Shown piece by piece: positions 6,335 to 16,428 of a stretch of 64,000 nucleotides of DNA. Position 1 is the first letter of the stretch. Every line of letters begins with the position of its first letter. The position numbers and the translations under genes were made by a program. The notes beneath the pieces were generated by a model. It saw only the letters and a list, made by a program, of their open reading frames with translations, was not told the DNA's origin and searched no databases. Source of the DNA: Qipengyuania sp. SS22 (lineage in GTDB: Bacteria; Pseudomonadota; Alphaproteobacteria; Sphingomonadales; Sphingomonadaceae); contig NZ_CP107048.1 of assembly GCF_025736935.1 (NCBI RefSeq), forward strand, positions 744,001-808,000, in the 5' to 3' direction.

Positions 6335-6820
6335 CTAGATGTCGACCTTGTCCGCATGCTGTTTCTCGGCTTCTTCATGCACGGTCATGCCGAGCGCCAT
6401 CTTGGCGGTGTTGAGCAGGCCGAGGTCGCCATTCCAGATTTCGGCATCGCCGAGGTCCATGCGCAGGAAGGCGATGTCGGGATCGTTCTTGCCGCCATCG
6501 TACCAGGCCTCGACGAAATTGTTCCAGAACTGGTCGAAGCGTTCCTGGCTGGTTTCGCGCGTCAGCGTACCGTCGAAGCGGGCGAACAGTTCGTGGCCCT
6601 TGCTTTCGAAGGTTGCGGTGGCGCGACCGAGCTTGACGAAATCGCTCTTGGTATGGGTGAAGAACCAGATCGAGCTGTTGGCATCCTTATCGAGCTGCGG
6701 GCTCATCGGCACCGCGGTCGCGCTTTGTCCGTCGAGCTGAAGGAACAGGAAGGGCGAGTCGGCCAATGCCTTCCAGAATTTGGTCTTGAGTTCGTCGGGG
6801 TTTCCTGCGGCGTGTTTCAT
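6335..6820 (-). CDS. Pyridoxamine 5'-phosphate oxidase-like (general stress protein 26 type)
   Basis: A 161-aa cytoplasmic split-barrel protein of the PNPOx-like flavin-binding superfamily (general stress protein 26 group). The barrel runs from residue 20 to 125, with typical elements SPQLDKDANSSIWFFTHTKSD and RFDGTLTRETSQERFDQFWNN. Homologues bind FMN or FAD; the reaction here is unknown. The start at 6820 is set by a strong GAAGGAG site six bases before the ATG. The upstream 142 bases carry the divergent imuA promoter and LexA box. Confidence 0.8.
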   Translation of the reverse strand: MKHAAGNPDELKTKFWKALADSPFLFLQLDGQSATAVPMSPQLDKDANSSIWFFTHTKSDFVKLGRATATFESKGHELFARFDGTLTRETSQERFDQFWNNFVEAWYDGGKNDPDIAFLRMDLGDAEIWNGDLGLLNTAKMALGMTVHEEAEKQHADKVDI

Positions 6821-6910
6821 GGTGTCTCCTTCAAAGGGTGTTGCCTGACCAATGGATGAGGCGGCGGTTCGGTCCCGTTCTGCGACGACGGGAGAACCCG
6901 CTGCGCCGAA

Positions 6911-6939
6911 TTGCGAATCGATCCGATATGGAACATAGT
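6911..6939 (+). promoter_or_regulatory. Candidate imuA promoter
   Basis: TTGCGA (6911-6916) and CATAGT (6934-6939) separated by 17 bases form a moderate sigma70-like promoter. The -10 lies inside the LexA box, so bound LexA would block it. The start site would fall near 6946, about 16 bases before the imuA ATG. Inferred from sequence only. Confidence 0.45.
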
Positions 6940-6945
6940 AGGAAC
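6931..6945 (+). promoter_or_regulatory. LexA (SOS) box upstream of imuA
   Basis: GAAC-ATAGTAG-GAAC, an exact match to the direct-repeat operator GAAC-N7-GAAC (GTTC-N7-GTTC on the other strand) known for alphaproteobacterial LexA. It ends 17 bases before the imuA ATG and overlaps the likely -10 element. Confidence 0.85.
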
Positions 6946-6962
6946 ACACGAGTCGTTCCCCT

Positions 6963-7745
6963 ATGTCCCAGCCCGATCTTGCCTCCCTGCCGCTCATGGC
7001 CTTCGAAGACGTCGCCGCGCTATCCGCGCGGCGCAGTGCGCGCTGGCGTCTGGGCCTGGCGGCAAGCCGGGGGCTGGCACTACACAATGAAGTGTTTGCT
7101 TCCTCGCGCGAGGGGGCAGGGGCGGGTGCCGCGCTGGCGCTGGCGCTCGACGACTGGCGCACTTTGCCGCGCGGCGATGGCTGCGAGGCGCAGGACCGGC
7201 GCAGCGTGCTGTGGGTTCAGACGCGCGAAGCGGCGCGGCGTGCAGGGCGGCCCTATCGCGCCGGACTGCCAGAAATGTTGCAGGGACGGGTGATCCATGT
7301 GCTCGCCGAAAAATGCGAGGACGCGCTCTTCGCACTTGAGGAGGGGCTGCGCTGCCGCGACCTCGCCTTCGTGGTGGGCGAGATCGCGGGCAATCCCAAG
7401 GCGCTCGACTTTACGGCCTCGCGCCGCCTGACGCTGGCGGGGGAAAAGCATGGCGTACCGCTGTTCCTCGTCCGGATCGATGCGGCGCGCGACCTGTCCT
7501 CGGCAAGGATGCGGTGGGAGGTCACCTCTGCTCCTTCCGCCGCGCCGCACTGGAATGCGCAGGCTCCCGGCCCGCCGCGCTGGCAGGCCGAACTGTTCCG
7601 CGCCCGCGCGCATGCACCGGGCGAATGGTTGTTGGCCGAAGAGCAGGGCGATCTTACCGCGAGCACGGCCCGCAGTGCAGATGACGCAATGCTTGGCAAT
7701 TGGACGGCGGGATTGCGCCAGCGGCATCCGCTGCTCAGGGCGTGA
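6963..7745 (+). CDS. imuA: ImuA, SOS mutagenesis protein
   Basis: A 260-aa RecA-like accessory protein of the damage-induced mutasome. ImuA acts with ImuB and DnaE2 in error-prone bypass of DNA lesions. The sequence shows the family pattern: HNEVFAS near residue 40, a strand-helix RecA-like core (RVIHVLAEKCEDALFALEEGLR, LAFVVGEIAG) and a basic C terminus, but no clear Walker A, as is usual for alphaproteobacterial ImuA. It is directly preceded by a LexA box. Its stop TGA overlaps the imuB GTG start, so the two are probably translationally coupled. Confidence 0.85.
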   Translation: MSQPDLASLPLMAFEDVAALSARRSARWRLGLAASRGLALHNEVFASSREGAGAGAALALALDDWRTLPRGDGCEAQDRRSVLWVQTREAARRAGRPYRAGLPEMLQGRVIHVLAEKCEDALFALEEGLRCRDLAFVVGEIAGNPKALDFTASRRLTLAGEKHGVPLFLVRIDAARDLSSARMRWEVTSAPSAAPHWNAQAPGPPRWQAELFRARAHAPGEWLLAEEQGDLTASTARSADDAMLGNWTAGLRQRHPLLRA

Positions 7746-9316
7746 GTACGCCGCAGAAGGGTGGCTCCTGCACCCGCCGCATCCTGTCGATCTGGCTCCC
7801 TGCGCTGGCGATGGATCGCTGGCGGATGGTGACGGGCGAGCAGGCTGAGGCGTTCGCCGCCCGGCCACTGGTGCTGGTCGCCGATACCGCGCATGGACCA
7901 CGGATCGAAGCGGTCAATCGCGCCGCTGCCGAGGCTGGGGCGCGAGCGGAAATGATGCTCGCCGATGCGCGCACGCTGTGCCCTGAAATCGCCACCGCGC
8001 CGAGCGATCCGGCGGGCGATCTCGCCTTTCTCGAGACCTTGGCGATCTGGGCGCAGCGCTGGGGGCCATGGTCAGCGCTCGACCCGCCCGACGGGCTGCT
8101 GGTCGATGTGACTGCGGTGGCGCATCTCTTCGGCGGGGAAAGCCTGTTGCTCGCCGATGTGCAGCAGGCCTTTGCCCAGCGGCAGCTGACGGTTCGCACG
8201 GCGATTGCGCCAACTGCCGGGGCCGCCTGGGCGCTGGCGCATCATGGCCGTGACGGCGCTATCGTCGAGGGAGACGAAGCGATCGAACGCGCTTTGTCCG
8301 ATCTGCCCGTGGCTGCCCTGCGGCTCGACCAGGATGTGGTGACCGTGTTGCGCCGGCTGGGGCTCAAGCGGCTAGGCGAGATCGCGACTTTGGGACGCGA
8401 TGCGATCCAGCGACGTTTCCGCAACCGCAAGTCGCCTGCCGCCAATCCGCTGGTTCGGCTCGACCAGCTCCTCGGCCGCGTCCCCGAACCGCTGCTGCCC
8501 GTGGTTCCGCAACAGGTGCCGCTGGTCCAGCGCCGCTTGCTCGAACCGATCCGCCATCGCCAGTTGCTCGACCAGGTGGTGCAGGATCTGGCGCAGGACA
8601 TGGCGCGCGTGTTGGAGGGGCAGGGGCAGGGTGCCCGGCGTCTGGAGCTCGGTCTGTGGCGAGTCGATGGCGAAGTGGTCGTCCGCCGTCTGGAAATGGC
8701 TGCCGCCACCCGCGATCCGGCGCATATCGTGCGGCTGTTTGCCGCCCGCCTCGACGATGTGGACGCGGGTTTCGGGATCGAGATGCTGCGCCTGCGCGCC
8801 AGCTGGGCCGAACCGCTCGCGCTCGAACAGGGCGATATCGAAAGTGCGGCGGAAACCCAGGGTACCAGCCTTGCCGCCTGTATCGACCGGCTGACCGTAA
8901 GACTCGGAGCCAAGGCCGTCAGCCGTCCGGTGCCTTTTGCCAGCCATATCCCCGAGCGTGCCCAGCGCTGGCAGCCGCCGCTCGAACCCGAAGCCGCCGC
9001 GCAGGGGCAGCTCGCCTTTCACACGCGGCCGCTCAAACTGCTCGACAACCCCGAAAAGATCGCGGTGCTCTACGCCACGCCCGACGGCTATCCGCAGCGC
9101 TTCCGCTGGCGCGGGCAGGTGCACGAGGTCGCGCGGGTCGAGGGGCCCGAACGCATCGCGCCCGAATGGTGGCGTGAACGCGGGGCTGCGCGGCTGCGCG
9201 ACTACTACCGCATCGAGGATGGGCAGGGGCGCCGCTACTGGATCTACCGCATGGGGATTATCGGTGACGGGCGCGGGGGGCCGCCCGACTGGTACCTGCA
9301 GGGATTATGCGCCTGA
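7742..9316 (+). CDS. imuB: ImuB, Y-family polymerase-like protein
   Basis: A 524-aa member of the Y-family polymerase fold that serves as the adaptor of the ImuA-ImuB-DnaE2 mutasome and is not expected to synthesise DNA. The first motif reads LSIWLPALAMDRW, so the catalytic acidic residues of DinB-type enzymes are missing, as is normal for ImuB. The palm/fingers (residues 20-200), little-finger region (about 240-350) and a long C-terminal tail follow. I chose the GTG at 7742, which overlaps the imuA stop as GTGA and places the RRILSIWLP motif about ten residues in, as in homologues. An open frame extends to 7700, but inside imuA. Confidence 0.9.
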   Translation: MSTPQKGGSCTRRILSIWLPALAMDRWRMVTGEQAEAFAARPLVLVADTAHGPRIEAVNRAAAEAGARAEMMLADARTLCPEIATAPSDPAGDLAFLETLAIWAQRWGPWSALDPPDGLLVDVTAVAHLFGGESLLLADVQQAFAQRQLTVRTAIAPTAGAAWALAHHGRDGAIVEGDEAIERALSDLPVAALRLDQDVVTVLRRLGLKRLGEIATLGRDAIQRRFRNRKSPAANPLVRLDQLLGRVPEPLLPVVPQQVPLVQRRLLEPIRHRQLLDQVVQDLAQDMARVLEGQGQGARRLELGLWRVDGEVVVRRLEMAAATRDPAHIVRLFAARLDDVDAGFGIEMLRLRASWAEPLALEQGDIESAAETQGTSLAACIDRLTVRLGAKAVSRPVPFASHIPERAQRWQPPLEPEAAAQGQLAFHTRPLKLLDNPEKIAVLYATPDGYPQRFRWRGQVHEVARVEGPERIAPEWWRERGAARLRDYYRIEDGQGRRYWIYRMGIIGDGRGGPPDWYLQGLCA

Positions 9317-9341
9317 ATCTGCGGCGATACATCATTCGACA

Positions 9342-9369
9342 TTGCAGGATGGTGTATGGAACATATAAT
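9342..9369 (+). promoter_or_regulatory. Strong sigma70-like promoter of the second SOS operon
   Basis: TTGCAG (9342-9347), 16-base spacer, and a perfect TATAAT (9364-9369). The TATAAT lies inside the seven-base spacer of the LexA box. Transcription is predicted to begin near 9376, which is also the first plausible ATG of the radical SAM gene, so the mRNA may be leaderless. Positions are read directly; activity is inferred. Confidence 0.6.
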
Positions 9370-9373
9370 GAAC
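9359..9373 (+). promoter_or_regulatory. LexA (SOS) box upstream of the radical SAM gene
   Basis: GAAC-ATATAAT-GAAC, a second exact GAAC-N7-GAAC operator, two bases before the ATG at 9376. Together with the imuA box it makes the whole 6.9-15.8 kb block a LexA target. Confidence 0.85.
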
Positions 9374-9375
9374 AT

Positions 9376-10620
9376 ATGGCCATGCAATCGATCCTCCAGA
9401 AGCTGGAAATCCTCGCCGATGCGGCGAAATACGATGCCTCCTGCGCATCCTCGGGCACGGCCAAACGCACCAGCATGGGCGGCAAGGGAATCGGTTCGAC
9501 CGAGGGGATGGGCATCTGTCACGCCTATGCACCCGATGGCCGCTGTATCTCGCTGCTCAAGATCCTGCTGACCAATCACTGCGTGTTCGACTGCCATTAC
9601 TGCGTCAACCGGAAGAGCTCGAATGTGGCACGCGCACGGTTCACACCGCAGGAAGTGGTCGATCTCACGCTGTCCTTCTACCGGCGCAATTATATCGAGG
9701 GGCTGTTCCTGTCCTCGGGCATCGTGAAGAACTCGAACCACACGATGGAACAGCTGGTAGAAGTCGCCCGTATCCTGCGGGAAAAACACGATTTTTGCGG
9801 GTATATCCATCTCAAGACCATTCCCGAGGCAGATGCCGAGATCGTCCACCAGGCGGGGCTCTATGCGGACCGTGTATCGATCAATGTCGAACTGCCGACC
9901 GACAGCGGCCTCACCCGGCTCGCCCCCGACAAGGATGCGCGGCAGATCGAAGGCGCGATGGGCAAGGTCAAGAGCGACATAAGCGAACTGAAAGACGCCA
10001 GAAAGCGCTTCAAGCATGCGCCCCGGTTCGCTCCCGCGGGTCAGTCGACGCAGATGATCGTCGGCGCCGATGCCGCGACCGATGCTGACATCGTCGGCAA
10101 GGCCAGCCGGCTGTATGACAATTTCCGCCTGCGCCGCGTTTATTACAGCGCCTTCTCGCCAATCCCCGATGCCAGTGCGGTGTTGCCGCTGAAGCGCCCG
10201 CCGCTGATCCGCGAGCACCGGCTCTACCAGTCCGACTGGCTGATGCGGTTCTACGGCTACAAGCCGGCCGAGGTGATGCAGGCGACCGAGGCGGACGGGA
10301 ACCTGCCGCTCGATATCGATCCCAAGCTCGCCTGGGCATTGAAGTTCCGCGAGCAGTTCCCGGTCGACGTCAACCGCGCCACCAAGGAACAATTGCTGCG
10401 TGTACCCGGGCTTGGCGTGAAGGCGGTGGGCAAGATTCTCGCCAGTCGCCGCCATCGCAATCTGCGGCTCGACGATGTGGCGCGGCTGACGCTGTCGGTC
10501 AGCAAGGTGCGGCCCTTTATCTGCACCGTCGACTGGCGCCCCATCATGCTGACTGATCGCGCCGACCTGCGCAGCCTGCTGGCGCCCAAGACCGAGCAGC
10601 TCGAGCTGTTCACCGCATGA
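9376..10620 (+). CDS. Putative DNA modification/repair radical SAM protein
   Basis: A 414-aa radical S-adenosylmethionine enzyme of the family named for presumed DNA modification or repair. The 4Fe-4S motif is CVFDCHYC (Cys 69, 73 and 76), with family blocks ADAAKYDASCASSG near the start and GICHAYAPDGRCISLLKILL just before the cluster. The C terminus has a helix-hairpin-helix DNA-binding segment (NRATKEQLLRVPGLGVKAVGKI). The substrate is unknown. I chose the ATG at 9376 (MAMQSILQK); 9382 is possible, and earlier in-frame starts lie in the promoter. No ribosome site is visible. Its ATGA stop overlaps the UdgX gene. Confidence 0.85.
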   Translation: MAMQSILQKLEILADAAKYDASCASSGTAKRTSMGGKGIGSTEGMGICHAYAPDGRCISLLKILLTNHCVFDCHYCVNRKSSNVARARFTPQEVVDLTLSFYRRNYIEGLFLSSGIVKNSNHTMEQLVEVARILREKHDFCGYIHLKTIPEADAEIVHQAGLYADRVSINVELPTDSGLTRLAPDKDARQIEGAMGKVKSDISELKDARKRFKHAPRFAPAGQSTQMIVGADAATDADIVGKASRLYDNFRLRRVYYSAFSPIPDASAVLPLKRPPLIREHRLYQSDWLMRFYGYKPAEVMQATEADGNLPLDIDPKLAWALKFREQFPVDVNRATKEQLLRVPGLGVKAVGKILASRRHRNLRLDDVARLTLSVSKVRPFICTVDWRPIMLTDRADLRSLLAPKTEQLELFTA

Positions 10621-12092
10621 CCGCGCTCCAGCACGTCAAGCTTGGTACCTATCATGTGGTCCATTTGCCCGAACCGGACGATTTCGAGTTCTGGCGCGAG
10701 CGGGCGCGTACACTGGTGCAGTGCGATGTCCCGCCCGACCGCATCGCCTGGGTCGAGCCGGGCGGCAATGGCGATCTGTTCGCCGCCGCTTCGTTTCCCG
10801 GGGGTGACCGGCGCATGCCGGTTCCGTCCGGCGATGCCGCTCCGGTGCGCGCGAGCAAGCGTTTCGTGACGCTGGCGCGCAATGCCATCCTCCATTCCGA
10901 CCCCGAACGGTTCGCGCTGCTCTATCGGCTGCTGTGGCGGTTGCAGGCGAACGGGCGGATCATGGAGGACAAGGCCGATCCCGATGTCCGCCGGGTGGAG
11001 GAACTGGCCAAGAACGTCCGCCGCGACAGCCACAAGATGCACGCCTTCGTCCGTTTCCGCCTGGTGGAGGACGAGAACGAGGACGAGGAAGCGGGCGAGC
11101 ATTACGTCGCCTGGTTCGAACCCGATCACCATATCCTGCGCGCCAATGCGGGTTTCTTCATGCGGCGCTTTGCGAATATGCGCTGGTCTATCCTGACTCC
11201 GCGCGGCTCGCTCCACTGGGACGGGACGACCATGTCCGAAGGCCCGCCCGCCGAGCGGTCCGATGCGCCGCAGGGCGATCCGACGGAGGATCTGTGGCGC
11301 AGCTATTACGCCTCGATCTTTAATCCCGCGCGGCTGAAGATCGGCGCGATGCTCAAGGAAATGCCCAAGAAATACTGGAAAAACATGCCAGAGGCCGCGC
11401 TCATCCCCGAGCTGGTGGCGGGCGCGCAGAACCGCGAGGCGCAGATGGTCGACAAGGGCAAGTCGCTGTTCGCGGACGGGCTGGAGGACCGGCCCGATAC
11501 GCTGGCGGCGATCGACAAGGCGATCCATGCCTGCCGCAAATGCCCGATCGGCCAACTCGACAACCATGCGGTGATGGGCGAAGGGCCGGACGATGCTGCG
11601 CTCATGATCGTCGGCGAACAGCCGGGCGACCAGGAGGATCTGGCGGGCCGTCCTTTCGTCGGTCCCGCCGGGCAATTGCTCGACGTGCATCTCGAGAAGG
11701 CCGGGATCGAGCGCAAGCGCGCCTATGTCACCAATACGGTGAAGCACTTCAAATATGTCCAGCGCGGCAAGCGGCGGTTGCACCAGAACCCCGGCGCGAA
11801 AGAGATCGACACCTGCCGCTGGTGGATCGAGAGCGAGCGCGCGATCGTGCAGCCCAAGCTGGTGCTGGCCATGGGTGCCAGCGCGGCGCGTGGGATGCTG
11901 GGCAAGACGGTCAGCATCACGAAGGTGCGGGGCAGCCCGATCATGCTCGAGGATGGCAGCGAGCTGTGGGTCACCGCGCATCCTTCCTACCTGCTGCGGC
12001 TCGATGGGCCGGCGCGAGAGGAACAGGCGCGCCTGTTCGATGCCGACCTTGCCGCGGTGCGCACACGGTTGGCGCAGCTTACGGCCCCATGA
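10617..12092 (+). CDS. udgX: DUF4130-UdgX fusion, uracil-DNA binding protein
   Basis: A 491-aa fusion. Residues 1 to about 250 are DUF4130, a domain of unknown role that accompanies the radical SAM family. Residues about 290-480 are UdgX, a family 4-like uracil-DNA glycosylase. Visible features are the cluster Cys pair at 306 and 309 (CRKC), motif A-like GEQPGDQED (333-341), and the UdgX-specific loop KRRLHQ (385-390). His 389 corresponds to the histidine that in mycobacterial UdgX becomes covalently bound to the deoxyribose after uracil release. Start ATG overlaps the radical SAM stop by four bases. The LexA context implies a role in damage response or bypass. Confidence 0.9.
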   Translation: MTALQHVKLGTYHVVHLPEPDDFEFWRERARTLVQCDVPPDRIAWVEPGGNGDLFAAASFPGGDRRMPVPSGDAAPVRASKRFVTLARNAILHSDPERFALLYRLLWRLQANGRIMEDKADPDVRRVEELAKNVRRDSHKMHAFVRFRLVEDENEDEEAGEHYVAWFEPDHHILRANAGFFMRRFANMRWSILTPRGSLHWDGTTMSEGPPAERSDAPQGDPTEDLWRSYYASIFNPARLKIGAMLKEMPKKYWKNMPEAALIPELVAGAQNREAQMVDKGKSLFADGLEDRPDTLAAIDKAIHACRKCPIGQLDNHAVMGEGPDDAALMIVGEQPGDQEDLAGRPFVGPAGQLLDVHLEKAGIERKRAYVTNTVKHFKYVQRGKRRLHQNPGAKEIDTCRWWIESERAIVQPKLVLAMGASAARGMLGKTVSITKVRGSPIMLEDGSELWVTAHPSYLLRLDGPAREEQARLFDADLAAVRTRLAQLTAP

Positions 12093-12108
12093 AACACGCA
12101 ATTTCCCT

Positions 12109-12192
12109 CGTCACCCCCGCGAAGGCGGGGGTCCAGCCAAGCTTTCGCCAAGTGGCGAGGGTGGATGGATCCCTGCCTTCGCAGGAATGACG
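12109..12192. repeat. REP-like palindromic repeat (CGTCA...TGACG family)
   Basis: An 84-bp element bounded by CGTCA and TGACG. It holds three perfect hairpins: CCCCCGC-GAAG-GCGGGGG (12114-12131), TCGCCA-AG-TGGCGA (12145-12158) and CCTGC-CTTC-GCAGG (12172-12185). This is the sphingomonad-type intergenic palindrome. It fills the udgX-dnaE2 gap. A more decayed relative lies at 41256-41341. Confidence 0.8.
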
Positions 12193-12213
12193 GCAGCCCG
12201 AGGCTCGCCGGCC

Positions 12214-15200
12214 ATGCCCGAAAACGATCTCCAGATTCCCAAGCGAACGATCGAGCTTGATCCGGCGAGCATCGAGGCGCCGCCGCGCTCTCCCTTTGTC
12301 GAGCTCGGTCTTGTCTCCTGCTTCAGTTTCCTGCGCGGCGCGTCGGATGCGGTCGATCTGGTGCTGCAGGCGCGCGCGCTGGGGTATGATGCGCTCGGGA
12401 TTGCCGATGCCAATACGATGGCGGGTGTGGTGCGTATCCATATCGAGGCAAAAACGCTTAAGTTGAAGCCGCTTATCGGCTGCAGGATAGAATCGGTCGA
12501 AGGTCTCACCTTCCTTGCCTATCCCCGCAATCGCGGCGCCTATGGGCGGTTGTGCCGCTTGGTTTCGGCGGGGCGAATGCAGACGCTCGACGGCGAATGG
12601 CAGGCCAAGGGGGCGTGCGACATCAGCCTCGCGATGCTGGCCGAGCATGCCGAGGATGTGCAGCTGATCCTGCTTCCGCCGCGCGATCTCGACGCCGAGT
12701 TCACGATCGCGGTCGAAAACAATGTTCTCCCCTTCCGTCATCCGGAAGCCCGGGGTGACGGGGAAAGCGTGGCGGTGGCGGGAACGCTGGCGGACATCCT
12801 CCCCCATCTCGCGGGCCAGCTTCCCACGCTTCGCCATCTCGCTGCCAGCTTCCTCTATACCGACAGCGATATCGCGCGGATCGAGCGGCTCGATGCGCTG
12901 GCGAAGGCGCACGGTCTCTCCATCCTCGCCACCAATGACGTGCATTACGCGACGCCCGACAAGCGCCCGCTGCAGGATGTGATGACTGCGATCCGGCACA
13001 AGACCACCGTCGCTGCGGCGGGCCACCTGCTGCATGGCAATGGCGAACGTTACCTCAAGCCGCCCGCCACCATGTGCAAGCTGTTCGAACGCTGGCCGCA
13101 TGCCATCGCCGCAACGCGCGAAGTGGCCGATGCCTGCACTTTCAGCCTCGACGAGCTGGCGTATGAATATCCCGAGGAGATTTACCCCGACGGGCAGGCG
13201 CCGCAGCAATTCCTCGTTGGCGAGACGTGGAAAGGGGCCAGCTGGCGTTATCCCAGCGGTGTCCCCGATAGCGTGCGCCAGACGCTGGAGCGTGAGCTGG
13301 CGCTGATCGGCAAGCTCGACCTCGCGCGCTACTTTCTCACCATCAAGGATATCGTCGATTATGCGCGCGGGGTCGATCCGCCGATCTTGTGCCAGGGGCG
13401 CGGCAGCGCGGCCAATTCGGCGGTCTGCTATTGTCTCGGCATCACCAGCGTCGATCCGGCCAAGCACGCGCTGTTGTTCGACCGCTTCATTTCCGAAGAG
13501 CGCAAGGAGCCGCCCGATATCGACGTCGATTTCGAGCATGAGCGGCGCGAGGAGGTGATCCAGTATATCTATCGCAAATACGGCCGCCACCGCGCGGGCC
13601 TGTGCGCTACGGTGATCCACTATCGCCCGCGCATGGCGATCCGCGAGGTGGGCAAGGCGATGGGCCTGACCGAGGATGTCACCGCCGCGCTCGCCAAGAC
13701 CGTATGGGGTGGATGGGGCCGCGAGATCAGCGAGAAACATGCTGCCGAAACGGGCATGGATGTGCGCGATCCGCACTTGCGCCGGGTTCTCAAGCTGACC
13801 GAGCAAATGATTGGTATGCCGCGCCATTTGTCGCAGCATGTCGGCGGGTTCATCCTCACTGAAAGTGCGCTGACCGAAACCGTGCCGATCGGCAATGGCG
13901 CGATGCCCGAACGCAGTTTCATCGAATGGGACAAGGACGATATCGAGGCGCTCGGCATCCTCAAGGTCGATGTCCTCGCGCTGGGCATGCTGACTTGCAT
14001 CCGCAAATGCCTCGACCTGCTCGACGACCATCACAACCGCCCGCTGAACCTCGCCAGCATTCCGCGCGAGGATCCGGAAACCTACGCCATGCTGCGCAAG
14101 GGGGATTCGCTCGGCGTGTTCCAGGTCGAAAGCCGCGCGCAGATGAACATGCTGCCGCGGCTGCGCCCGCGCGAATTCTATGATCTGGTCATCCAGGTTG
14201 CCATCGTGCGCCCGGGGCCGATCCAGGGCGACATGGTCCACCCCTATCTCAAGCGCCGCCGCGGGGCGGAACAGGTGATCATCCCCGCGCCGGCGCCCGA
14301 ACATGGCCCGCCTGACGAATTGTCGAGCATCCTCGAACGCACGCTGGGGGTGCCGATCTTCCAGGAACAGGCGATGAAGATCGCGCTCGATGCGGCGCAG
14401 TTTTCCTCCAAGGAAGCCAACCGGCTGCGCAAGGCGATGGCGACCTTCCGCAGCCGCGGGATGGTCGATGAATTGCAGGACATGATGGTCGAGCGCATGG
14501 TCGAGCGCGGCTATGATCGCGACTTCGCGCAGCGCTGCTTCAACCAGATCCGCGGCTTTGGCGAATACGGCTTTCCCGAAAGCCATGCGGCCAGCTTCGC
14601 GCATCTCGTCTATGTCTCGAGCTGGCTCAAATGCCACTTCCCCGCCGCCTTTGGCTGCGCGCTGCTCAATTCTCAGCCAATGGGCTTCTATGCTCCCGCG
14701 CAGATTGTACGCGACGCGCGCGAGCATGGCGTCACCGTGCTGCCTGCCGACGTCAATCTGTCGCAATGGGACTGCACGCTGGAAGACATTGGCGGCGAGG
14801 CACCCGCGACCGACCGAGAACGGGGGCGGGGCAGGCAGGACAAGACCATCGCGCTCCGCCTCGGCCTGCGGCAGGTGGATGGCTTGCCCGAAGCCGTGGC
14901 GGCGCGGCTGATTGCCGAGCGCGAGGAGGGTGGCCACTATGCCGATGTCGCCGCGCTCAAGGACCGCGCGCGGATCGGCCCGGCCCATATCGAGCGATTG
15001 GCAAGCGGGGACTGCTTCGGTTCGATGCAGCTTTCGCGCAGGCAGGCGTTGTGGGATGCGCGCAGCATCGTCGGCGGGCCGGACCTGCCGCTGTTTGCCG
15101 CTGCTGCGGCGCGCGAGGAGGGGGCCGAGGCCGTGCGTACGCAGCTTCCCGCAATGCCGCTGAGCGAGGAAGTGGTGGCCGATTACCAGACCACGCGGCT

Positions 15201-15783
15201 CAGCCTGAAGGCGCATCCGATGGCATTCCTGCGCGCCAGCCTCGCCGAGCGCGGTTTCGTACGCGCCAGCGACCTGCGTAACCGCAAGTTCCGCAGCATG
15301 GTCCATGTCGCGGGCGTGGTGCTGATCCGCCAGCGACCGGGCAGCGCCAAGGGCGTATGCTTCATCACGCTGGAGGACGAGACCGGGGTCGTTAATCTGG
15401 TCGTCTGGCCCGATCTCAAGGAAAAACAACGCCGCGTGGTGATGGGCAGCCGCCTGATGGAGGTGCGCGGCCGCGTCGAATATGACGACGAGGTGATCCA
15501 TGTGATCGCGCATCACATGGAAGATGCAACGCACCAGCTCTACCGGCTTTCCGACGACATGCTCAATGCCCCGGTCGCCCGTGCCGATCATGTCACCACG
15601 CCGCTGCCTGCCAAGTTCAACCCGCGCGACAATCTCAAAGAAGGCGGGGACGATCCCTACCAACCCGTCGAACCATGGGAGGAACCCCCGCCGGGCAATC
15701 GCGAATGCGGATGGTTCGGGCCGAATTCGGGCGGGCATCCCCGCAATGCGCGGATCATTCCCCCAAGCCGCGACTTCCACTAG
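12214..15783 (+). CDS. dnaE2: Error-prone DNA polymerase DnaE2
   Basis: A 1189-aa C-family polymerase, the catalytic member of the ImuA-ImuB-DnaE2 mutasome. An N-terminal PHP domain (SCFSFLRGASDAVDLV, residues about 30-300) is followed by the palm with catalytic Asp 435 and 437 (PPDIDVDF), fingers, a helix-hairpin-helix and a C-terminal OB domain (VHVAGVVLIRQRPGSAKG onward). The tail after about residue 1130 is Pro/Gly-rich. I chose the ATG at 12214; the in-frame ATG at 12187 lies inside the palindromic repeat and the frame stays open back into udgX. It is probably read from the LexA-controlled promoter at 9342. Confidence 0.95.
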   Translation: MPENDLQIPKRTIELDPASIEAPPRSPFVELGLVSCFSFLRGASDAVDLVLQARALGYDALGIADANTMAGVVRIHIEAKTLKLKPLIGCRIESVEGLTFLAYPRNRGAYGRLCRLVSAGRMQTLDGEWQAKGACDISLAMLAEHAEDVQLILLPPRDLDAEFTIAVENNVLPFRHPEARGDGESVAVAGTLADILPHLAGQLPTLRHLAASFLYTDSDIARIERLDALAKAHGLSILATNDVHYATPDKRPLQDVMTAIRHKTTVAAAGHLLHGNGERYLKPPATMCKLFERWPHAIAATREVADACTFSLDELAYEYPEEIYPDGQAPQQFLVGETWKGASWRYPSGVPDSVRQTLERELALIGKLDLARYFLTIKDIVDYARGVDPPILCQGRGSAANSAVCYCLGITSVDPAKHALLFDRFISEERKEPPDIDVDFEHERREEVIQYIYRKYGRHRAGLCATVIHYRPRMAIREVGKAMGLTEDVTAALAKTVWGGWGREISEKHAAETGMDVRDPHLRRVLKLTEQMIGMPRHLSQHVGGFILTESALTETVPIGNGAMPERSFIEWDKDDIEALGILKVDVLALGMLTCIRKCLDLLDDHHNRPLNLASIPREDPETYAMLRKGDSLGVFQVESRAQMNMLPRLRPREFYDLVIQVAIVRPGPIQGDMVHPYLKRRRGAEQVIIPAPAPEHGPPDELSSILERTLGVPIFQEQAMKIALDAAQFSSKEANRLRKAMATFRSRGMVDELQDMMVERMVERGYDRDFAQRCFNQIRGFGEYGFPESHAASFAHLVYVSSWLKCHFPAAFGCALLNSQPMGFYAPAQIVRDAREHGVTVLPADVNLSQWDCTLEDIGGEAPATDRERGRGRQDKTIALRLGLRQVDGLPEAVAARLIAEREEGGHYADVAALKDRARIGPAHIERLASGDCFGSMQLSRRQALWDARSIVGGPDLPLFAAAAAREEGAEAVRTQLPAMPLSEEVVADYQTTRLSLKAHPMAFLRASLAERGFVRASDLRNRKFRSMVHVAGVVLIRQRPGSAKGVCFITLEDETGVVNLVVWPDLKEKQRRVVMGSRLMEVRGRVEYDDEVIHVIAHHMEDATHQLYRLSDDMLNAPVARADHVTTPLPAKFNPRDNLKEGGDDPYQPVEPWEEPPPGNRECGWFGPNSGGHPRNARIIPPSRDFH

Positions 15784-15792
15784 GCGCGCTGC

Positions 15793-16428
15793 ATGATTGA
15801 TGCCGAAAAGCTCGCCGCCTTCGCGCTGGTGACCGCGACCACCAGCCTGGTGCCAGGGCAATCGATGCTGTTCGTCATGGGACAGGCGGTCTGGCGCGGT
15901 GCGCGGTCGGGTTGGGCGGCGCTGCTGGGCATGCAGATCGGCTATCTGATGTGGTGGGTGCTGGTCGCGTTCGGGCTCGGCACGCTGGCGGCAGCCTATC
16001 CGCTTGCCTTCCGGGCACTGGCCTTTGCGGGAATTGCCTATCTCGCCTGGCTCGGCATTACGGCGATCCGGCACTCCTTCCACGCGGGGGAGGGACCGGC
16101 GCCGACTGCCCGGCCACCCTCGCGTCACGCCTTTCGCGACGGCATCCTCATCGCCATCGGCAATCCAAAGTCGCTGATCTACATGCTCGCGATTATCCCG
16201 CCCTTCGTCGATGCCGCATCGCCGATCGGGCCGCAGATCATCCTTCTCGCCATTCTCGCCCTCGTGATCGACCTGCCGGTCGGGGCACTCTACATCGGCG
16301 CCGGGCAACGGCTCGCCCTCCTGATGGCACGCGCTGCGACGCGCCGCTGGATCGATCGCGGCATTGGAACGGTTTTCCTCCTGATAGCGGCCATCGTGCT
16401 GGCCGAACTGCTGGGGACGAATTTGTGA
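15793..16428 (+). CDS. LysE/RhtB family exporter
   Basis: A 211-aa inner-membrane protein with about six helices. The family motif is near the N terminus (TSLVPGQSMLFVMGQAVWRGARSG), and the second conserved Asn-Pro block is AIGNPKSLIYML. LysE/RhtB proteins export amino acids or related small metabolites; the substrate is not predictable. It starts nine bases after dnaE2, and its stop TGA overlaps the following GTG start, so it forms a small unit with the extensin-like gene. Confidence 0.85.
   Translation: MIDAEKLAAFALVTATTSLVPGQSMLFVMGQAVWRGARSGWAALLGMQIGYLMWWVLVAFGLGTLAAAYPLAFRALAFAGIAYLAWLGITAIRHSFHAGEGPAPTARPPSRHAFRDGILIAIGNPKSLIYMLAIIPPFVDAASPIGPQIILLAILALVIDLPVGALYIGAGQRLALLMARAATRRWIDRGIGTVFLLIAAIVLAELLGTNL

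Follow-up and report, generated by a model that had tools for sequence, protein, structure and literature searches.

In Qipengyuania sp. SS22, the error-prone polymerase gene dnaE2 lies directly behind genes for a radical S-adenosylmethionine (SAM) protein of the family TIGR03916 (rSAM) and for a DUF4130-UdgX fusion (udgX), and these three genes appear to share a LexA-controlled promoter distinct from that of imuA-imuB. The locus was analysed within a stretch of 64,000 nucleotides (contig NZ_CP107048.1, positions 744,001 to 808,000; hereafter the window, whose numbering is used throughout). The rSAM and udgX genes are probably induced by DNA damage. The rSAM protein ends in a predicted beta-clamp-binding peptide that is conserved in its family, and this tail would bring the enzyme to the replication machinery. 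With dnaE2 in tandem behind rSAM-udgX, the processing of lesions and their error-prone bypass may be co-induced. The features of the locus are as follows, with UdgX residues aligned to the Mycobacterium smegmatis (Msm) numbering in an excerpt of PMC10359453.

6931-6945 (+): LexA-type box 1, GAACATAGTAGGAAC, 17 nt 5' of the imuA ATG
6963-7745 (+): imuA; open frame, weak NF033429 match, position, homologues 5' of imuB in relatives
7742-9316 (+): imuB, Y-family-like; Pfam IMS, IMS_C and DUF6504 over threshold, probable GTG start
9002-9019 (+): ImuB QGQLAF, candidate clamp-binding hexapeptide of QxxLxF type, from a rough pattern
9359-9373 (+): LexA-type box 2, GAACATATAATGAAC, 2 nt 5' of the rSAM ATG, with TATAAT inside (9364-9369)
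9376-10620 (+): rSAM, TIGR03916 (rSAM_link_UDG), with a helix-hairpin-helix-like stretch; 575.4 bits, cut-off 343.5
9580-9603 (+): CX3CX2C radical SAM cluster motif (C69, C73, C76), invariant in alignments of 23 and 59 rows
10597-10611 (+): rSAM C-terminal QLELF, residues 408-412, predicted beta-clamp-binding motif, from tail conservation
10617-12092 (+): udgX, DUF4130 (TIGR03915) fused to UdgX (TIGR03914), both over cut-off
11613-11627 (+): UdgX motif A, GEQPG; E334 and Q335 align with Msm E52 and Q53
11769-11783 (+): UdgX R-loop, KRRLH; R387 and H389 align with Msm R107 and the crosslinking H109, both invariant in 53 rows
11979-11999 (+): UdgX motif B, HPSYLLR; H455 and R461 align with Msm H178 and R184, both invariant in 53 rows
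12110-12196 (+): dispersed repeat of 87 bp between udgX and dnaE2; 18 genome matches including itself
12214-15783 (+): dnaE2, error-prone C-family polymerase; NF004225 1373.9 bits, cut-off 939, ATG at 12214

A sequence-only reading of this DNA had described five genes running head-to-tail on the + strand, with boxes upstream of imuA and of rSAM; the gene order (6963-15783) and both boxes (GAACN7GAAC) were confirmed. The rSAM and udgX genes overlap by ATGA (10617-10620). In the fusion protein, the DUF4130 part scored 234 bits against an NCBIfam cut-off of 112 and the UdgX part 321.4 bits against 189.95, and the DUF4130 and uracil-DNA glycosylase (UDG) domains were over threshold in Pfam too. 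Among the components of an ImuA-ImuB-DnaE2 mutasome, DnaE2 exceeded its family cut-off, and ImuB showed the Y-family and DUF6504 domains (three Pfam domains over threshold, tested from 7814 onward), its probable start being the GTG at 7742, which overlaps the imuA stop. ImuA remained below its family cut-off (NF033429, 24.6 bits versus 150, residues 108-190) and had no Pfam match; its identification is weak, coming mainly from gene position with this weak model match in addition.

A recurrent two-unit layout

The arrangement was compared in 147 genomes of the order, of which 59 contain TIGR03916 and 102 contain DnaE2, both over cut-off. A check for uniqueness found the order of genes not to be confined to this genome: rSAM-udgX stands directly before dnaE2 in 26 of the 147 genomes (26 of the 59 bearing rSAM), spread over 11 genera of one family. 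In all 26 linked genomes udgX and dnaE2 are adjacent, with dnaE2 located 1.53-1.78 kb downstream of rSAM on the same strand, approximately the length of udgX. Among 80 named loci, 13 have dnaE2 behind udgX, including those of Qipengyuania polymorpha, Alteraurantiacibacter buctensis, Croceicoccus sediminis and two Novosphingobium species; a 17-kb rSAM locus from Qipengyuania vulgaris contained no dnaE2.

Loci of 11-17 kb were then compared for 25 linked relatives, for 2 relatives that lack dnaE2 and for 13 out of 31 unlinked genomes, together with 20 dnaE2 loci. The idea of one five-gene unit did not survive this comparison, as the relatives show two units, imuA-imuB and rSAM-udgX-dnaE2, with other DNA between them in 19 of 25 loci. 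The gap between imuB and box 2 is <50 bp in 6 of the 25 linked loci and 0.44-3.3 kb in the 19, where the spacer contains open frames that differ between loci; several lie on the opposite strand and are shared by some relatives. In one linked locus imuA and imuB are out of view because the contig begins there (L059). The locus is thus not a contiguous imuA-imuB-dnaE2 cassette: a second LexA-type box and rSAM-udgX stand between imuB and dnaE2. Among the 13 unlinked genomes read, 12 dnaE2 loci are compact and have the order imuA-imuB-dnaE2, counting one in which imuA was unmatched (imuB-dnaE2) and a box precedes dnaE2 too; one of the 13 has imuA-imuB divergent from dnaE2. A box is present upstream of rSAM in all 13.

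Predicted LexA sites

The alphaproteobacterial LexA motif is a direct repeat, GTTCN7GTTC, close to the start codon. The two predicted sites at this locus are direct-repeat boxes of this kind, near a start codon and conserved in relatives: all 26 linked genomes, counting the window, have a box ahead of rSAM, each of the 25 linked loci that show imuA has one ahead of that gene, and the two occur together in all 25 linked loci with both sites in view. In a set of 158 distinct rSAM loci (161 given, those sharing the first 600 gene bases removed), an SOS-type box lies ≤150 bp 5' of rSAM in 151, of which 141 have the direct repeat and 10 have CTGTN8ACAG, and 7 loci have no box. In 82 of the 141 direct-repeat loci, exactly 2 nt separate the box from the start codon as chosen by script. 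The rSAM-udgX pair is an SOS-type unit in its own right.

The exact boxes were not accepted as significant on their own. GAACN7GAAC has 4 matches in the window versus 1.5 expected, a count reached by 7 of 100 shuffles, and 81 sites genome-wide versus 34 for a reversed control; because the pattern is common by chance, the weight rests on the position and conservation of the boxes. A third direct-repeat match on the + strand (11001-11015) falls within udgX and was treated as chance, and the palindromic form GAACN7GTTC was not used because it has 69 genome sites versus 56 for the reversed control and one site in the window. Sixteen of the 81 genome boxes were inspected, mostly picked for A/T-rich cores, and three adjoin recA, uvrA and a SplB-like radical SAM gene, as recognised by eye. 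The last of these (1058300-1060800 of the genome) has the box GAACATATATAGAAC, close to the sequence of box 2. At another locus (L100), three overlapping direct-repeat boxes stand in tandem ~1.3 kb 5' of rSAM, in the opposite orientation.

From these sites we infer binding of LexA at both boxes. Since box 2 includes TATAAT, bound LexA would mask the -10 element, and the second unit may have a leaderless message with +1 near the rSAM ATG. A pyridoxamine-phosphate-oxidase-like gene (6335-6826, -) is divergent from imuA, and box 1, between the two, could serve both.

A clamp-type tail on the radical SAM protein

Beta-clamp-binding peptides have a consensus of the type QL(S/D)LF and are located in flexible tails. 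The rSAM protein contains QLELF in a low-confidence tail, with residues 409-414 under 50 in the predicted local distance difference test of the structure model, as expected for a flexible peptide. The strict pattern Q[LMF]xL[FLIW] occurs in the last 16 residues of 146 of 159 distinct TIGR03916 proteins (162 given, identical ones removed; one is from a viral contig), and the remaining 13 tails are variants such as QASLF, QGSLF, QLDMF, QLSLAL and QLGFGF. A looser pattern covering all 159 was composed after the tails had been inspected. The linker ahead of the motif varies in sequence and length.

The strict motif was also found in 119 of 120, 117 of 120 and 106 of 106 proteins from three database searches, sets that contain many near-copies. 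Going by the names in the lists, the second and third sets extend to Moraxellaceae and Bacteroidota. Of the three exceptions in the second set, two proteins have a single residue after a C-terminal QPDLF and the third is a fragment. By comparison, the motif ends none of 332 other cassette proteins and occurs in 0.25% of their 16-residue windows, and in none of the windows from the rSAM body. As related sequences are not independent, these counts are a measure of conservation, not of probability. Through this tail, rSAM may dock on the beta clamp.

ImuB has a candidate site as well. We take the QxxLxF hexapeptide to belong to the clamp-binding motif class; by a rough pattern, QxxLxF-like motifs are present in 30 of 36 linked ImuB proteins versus 10 of 26 others. 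An initial impression that the ImuB clamp motif was lost was rejected: a degenerate Q-x-D-[IL]-E had been taken as the site, and the hexapeptide was found further on.

In the body of rSAM, six cysteines and H49 are invariant in the alignments of 23 and 59 rows. Three of these cysteines and the histidine (residues 23, 48, 49 and 57) lie before the CX3CX2C motif, which suggests a second, auxiliary Fe-S cluster. The helix-hairpin-helix-like stretch scored 24.0 bits with the Pfam model HHH_3, below its threshold of 27. No SplB model was among the NCBIfam or Pfam matches at E 0.001, a search of family models only, and PHROGs gave one weak radical SAM match. Foldseek returned generic relatives, including MiaB, HydE and lipoyl synthase, with query-length TM-scores <0.45 among the 50 matches listed. 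The rSAM gene is found on 158 records of a plasmid collection, 58 of them from Phaeobacter, and two rSAM loci were found on viral contigs.

Catalytic residues of UdgX and the junction with dnaE2

The UdgX part of the fusion contains GEQPG, a KRRxH R-loop with the crosslinking histidine, and HPS, and E334, Q335, N373, R387, H389, H455 and R461 are invariant in 53 rows; residues marked crucial by published mutants are thus retained. The R-loop reads KRRLH, versus KRRIH in the excerpt of PMC10359453, where UdgX is described as acting on uracil in DNA and forming a covalent DNA-protein link. DUF4130-UdgX probably locks onto uracil in DNA. Relatives of the UDG part filled the matches listed in both fold searches with the fusion protein. 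A UDG without DUF4130 was found in none of 158 loci, and 17 of the 158 were counted as UDG-less, two of these being cut by a contig end.

The gap between udgX and dnaE2 is 121 nt here, wider than in most linked relatives, because of the 87-bp dispersed repeat. The three genes of the unit would be carried on a common message; the repeat may partly uncouple dnaE2 from the upstream genes in this genome. A LysE-type exporter gene (15793-16428, +) starts 10 nt past the dnaE2 stop, and read-through into it from the SOS unit may occur. No Rfam family reached gathering score between 4000 and 18000 of the window.

Origin of the linkage and co-occurrence

In a tree of 55 DnaE2 proteins (that of genome G109 left out), the linked rows cluster, with 6 changes of linkage versus a mean of 16.0 after shuffling, and several rSAM-less rows stand among them. 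In three loci without rSAM-udgX (L090-L092), dnaE2 is still preceded by a box of the box-2 type, and in L091 this box is followed by what by eye is a decayed rSAM start, DTAECDASCAS for DAAKYDASCAS. On account of these three loci and the dnaE2 tree, the history is read as one joining followed by several losses. The joining brought dnaE2 and a free-standing SOS-type operon, rSAM-udgX, under one promoter and probably took place in a forebear that Erythrobacteraceae share with some Novosphingobium.

Linkages of another form belong to two other alphaproteobacterial groups, f14 and Henriciella. In 8 of the 9 f14 genomes with rSAM in a sample of the phylum (G180, G255, G290, G369, G411, G439, G457 and G489; the exception is G235), coordinates compared by eye place rSAM and dnaE2 ~2.5 kb apart on opposite strands. 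In the two f14 loci L108 and L109 and in Henriciella pelagia (L179), imuA-imuB-dnaE2 is divergent from rSAM-udgX, with 1-2 LexA-type boxes between them.

DnaE2 and rSAM tend to occur together. In the phylum sample, DnaE2 is present in 89 of 103 rSAM-positive versus 116 of 294 rSAM-negative genomes, the 89 being counted by hand, with a best E-value of 0 standing in for the cut-off, and the total of 205 a tally over cut-off; within the order it is present in 57 of 59 versus 45 of 88. These tests of co-occurrence ignore shared descent.

Discussion

The analysis shows which genes and boxes the locus contains, its layout in two units, the conservation of these features, the catalytic residues and the tail motif. 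On this basis we favour, and hold to be reasonably probable, clamp-targeted lesion processing by rSAM, DUF4130 and UdgX that is induced together with translesion synthesis by DnaE2. Upon DNA damage, LexA would leave both promoters, each box standing before one unit, imuA-imuB for the first and rSAM, DUF4130-UdgX and dnaE2 for the second. Where DNA is stalled or gapped, the rSAM protein, with its helix-hairpin-helix-like stretch and clamp-type tail, would bind the beta clamp. Together with DUF4130 and the UdgX part, which crosslinks to uracil, it would process or sequester a lesion in a base, with uracil or a modified pyrimidine as the probable candidate. DnaE2, from the same message, would work with ImuA-ImuB to fill across the remainder. 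Here we infer the clamp binding, the identity of the lesion and the split between lesion handling and bypass.

The sequence-only reading had proposed that rSAM and UdgX work with translesion synthesis. The boxes on both units, the recurrence over 11 genera and the divergent linkage elsewhere speak for this; that each partner occurs without or apart from the other speaks against it, and joint function with DnaE2 is plausible, not obligatory. Several observations weigh against the functional link that we favour. The rSAM-udgX pair is apart from dnaE2 in 31 of the 59 genomes and occurs without DnaE2 over cut-off in 2 of the 59, and DnaE2 occurs without rSAM in 45 of the 147. Within the family, DnaE2 is present in 56 of 58 rSAM-positive versus 22 of 28 rSAM-negative genomes (p 0.013), co-occurrence being confounded by descent. 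At least 5 of the 6 linkage changes on the dnaE2 tree are forced by well-supported branches, and the rSAM tree (85 rows), which is poorly resolved, mixes linked and unlinked rows, with 9 changes of which at least 3 are forced. Of the 156 loci that no contig end truncates, 15 have no UDG beside DUF4130. Finally, 13 of the 16 inspected genome boxes adjoin no gene recognised as an SOS gene, and a promoter scan gave no sigma-70 site at box 2.

Mere co-regulation has a substantial but smaller chance of being correct. The shared LexA-type promoter would then be an economy, with rSAM-udgX and DnaE2 dealing with different lesions in neither physical nor functional contact. A chance joining of two LexA-controlled units could give the observed proximity, and elsewhere the two parts each have an SOS-type box of their own and each occur without the other. 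Such an economy sits less easily with the retention of rSAM-udgX-dnaE2 across 11 genera, with separate divergent associations with imuA-imuB-dnaE2 in the f14 genomes and Henriciella, and with clamp-type motifs in both rSAM and ImuB.

Clamp-targeted processing can be extended into a broader model, which we put forward tentatively. TIGR03916 proteins in general would process lesions at the fork while tethered to the clamp, in concert with translesion synthesis. Those of Erythrobacteraceae would form a repair-and-bypass complex with UdgX and DnaE2: rSAM and ImuB would sit on the clamp, UdgX would crosslink uracil-type lesions or mark gaps, rSAM-DUF4130 would resolve them, and DnaE2 would fill.

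It is rather unlikely that rSAM-DUF4130 is the core of the system, removing or maturing the UdgX-DNA crosslink or acting on the same uracil-derived adduct, with the link to dnaE2 secondary. The six invariant cysteines and H49 would permit a second Fe-S cluster, and the generic Foldseek matches, which include MiaB, HydE and lipoyl synthase, are in keeping with it, low as these matches are. The loci with DUF4130 and no adjacent UDG (15 of 156), set beside the absence of any UDG without DUF4130 (0 of 158), agree with a core of this kind, but the same loci exclude the UdgX adduct as the only substrate.

In a stricter form of the earlier proposal, UdgX captures uracil lesions for DnaE2, and UdgX and rSAM are mutasome subunits or obligate accessories. 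We regard this as improbable, despite the tandem order with dnaE2, the intact crosslinking residues of UdgX, the co-occurrence of rSAM and DnaE2, and the link drawn in an excerpt of PMC8565304 between SOS-controlled UDGs and ribonucleotide misincorporation by error-prone polymerases. A covalent UdgX-DNA adduct, as described in part in PMC10359453, should hinder a polymerase, rSAM-udgX without dnaE2 and the reverse both exist, and the UDG part is missing beside DUF4130 in the loci already mentioned. UdgX before DnaE2 as an obligatory step is unlikely because the partners exist separately and the adduct should hinder the polymerase. Defence against phage or plasmid DNA containing uracil is very improbable: UdgX acts on uracil in DNA (PMC10359453, in excerpt) and rSAM is on 158 plasmid records, but PADLOC gave no match at the locus, 151 of 158 loci have an SOS-type box, and just two viral contigs were found.

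The rSAM-udgX pair, SOS control of the pair and the mutasome cassette are already known. In a search of the open-licence literature, we found in print neither a promoter shared by rSAM-udgX and dnaE2 nor the clamp-type tail of TIGR03916, and no paper combining either UdgX or a clamp-binding motif with radical SAM. We take COG4277 to be equivalent to TIGR03916. The available text of PMC8565304 describes an SOS-controlled two-gene operon, COG1573-COG4277, in Alphaproteobacteria, Verrucomicrobia and Bacteroidetes, and suggests that SOS-controlled UDGs handle ribonucleotide misincorporation by error-prone polymerases; the SOS control of the pair is therefore not new, and nor is the thought of joining UDGs to error-prone polymerases. 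That operon likewise places a UDG and a partner gene under LexA control. It is a separate repair operon there, whereas dnaE2 is the third gene here, and the available text mentions no clamp-type tail.

DUF4130 has also been tied to SplB-like radical SAM and UDG genes as a predicted mutagenesis-related enzyme (PMC3765255, in excerpt), the same association with radical SAM and UDG genes as at this locus; the excerpt mentions neither a clamp motif nor the rSAM-udgX-dnaE2 order. Unlike the UdgX of Mycobacterium smegmatis, as described in parts of PMC10359453 and PMC10776899 (structure 6ajo), the UdgX here is fused behind DUF4130, and its gene overlaps the rSAM gene behind a LexA-type box. A survey published in 2026 on the polymerases of bacteria and the genes around them (PMC12926913) contains neither 'radical' nor 'uracil' in its main text. 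The imuA-imuB-dnaE2 cassette of Caulobacter and its mycobacterial counterpart ImuA'-ImuB-DnaE2 (PMC1839093 and PMC10421592, in excerpt) resemble this locus in the three genes, the box before imuA and the candidate clamp motif of ImuB; in contrast to that cassette, dnaE2 is here detached from imuA-imuB and stands behind a second box that it has in common with rSAM-udgX.

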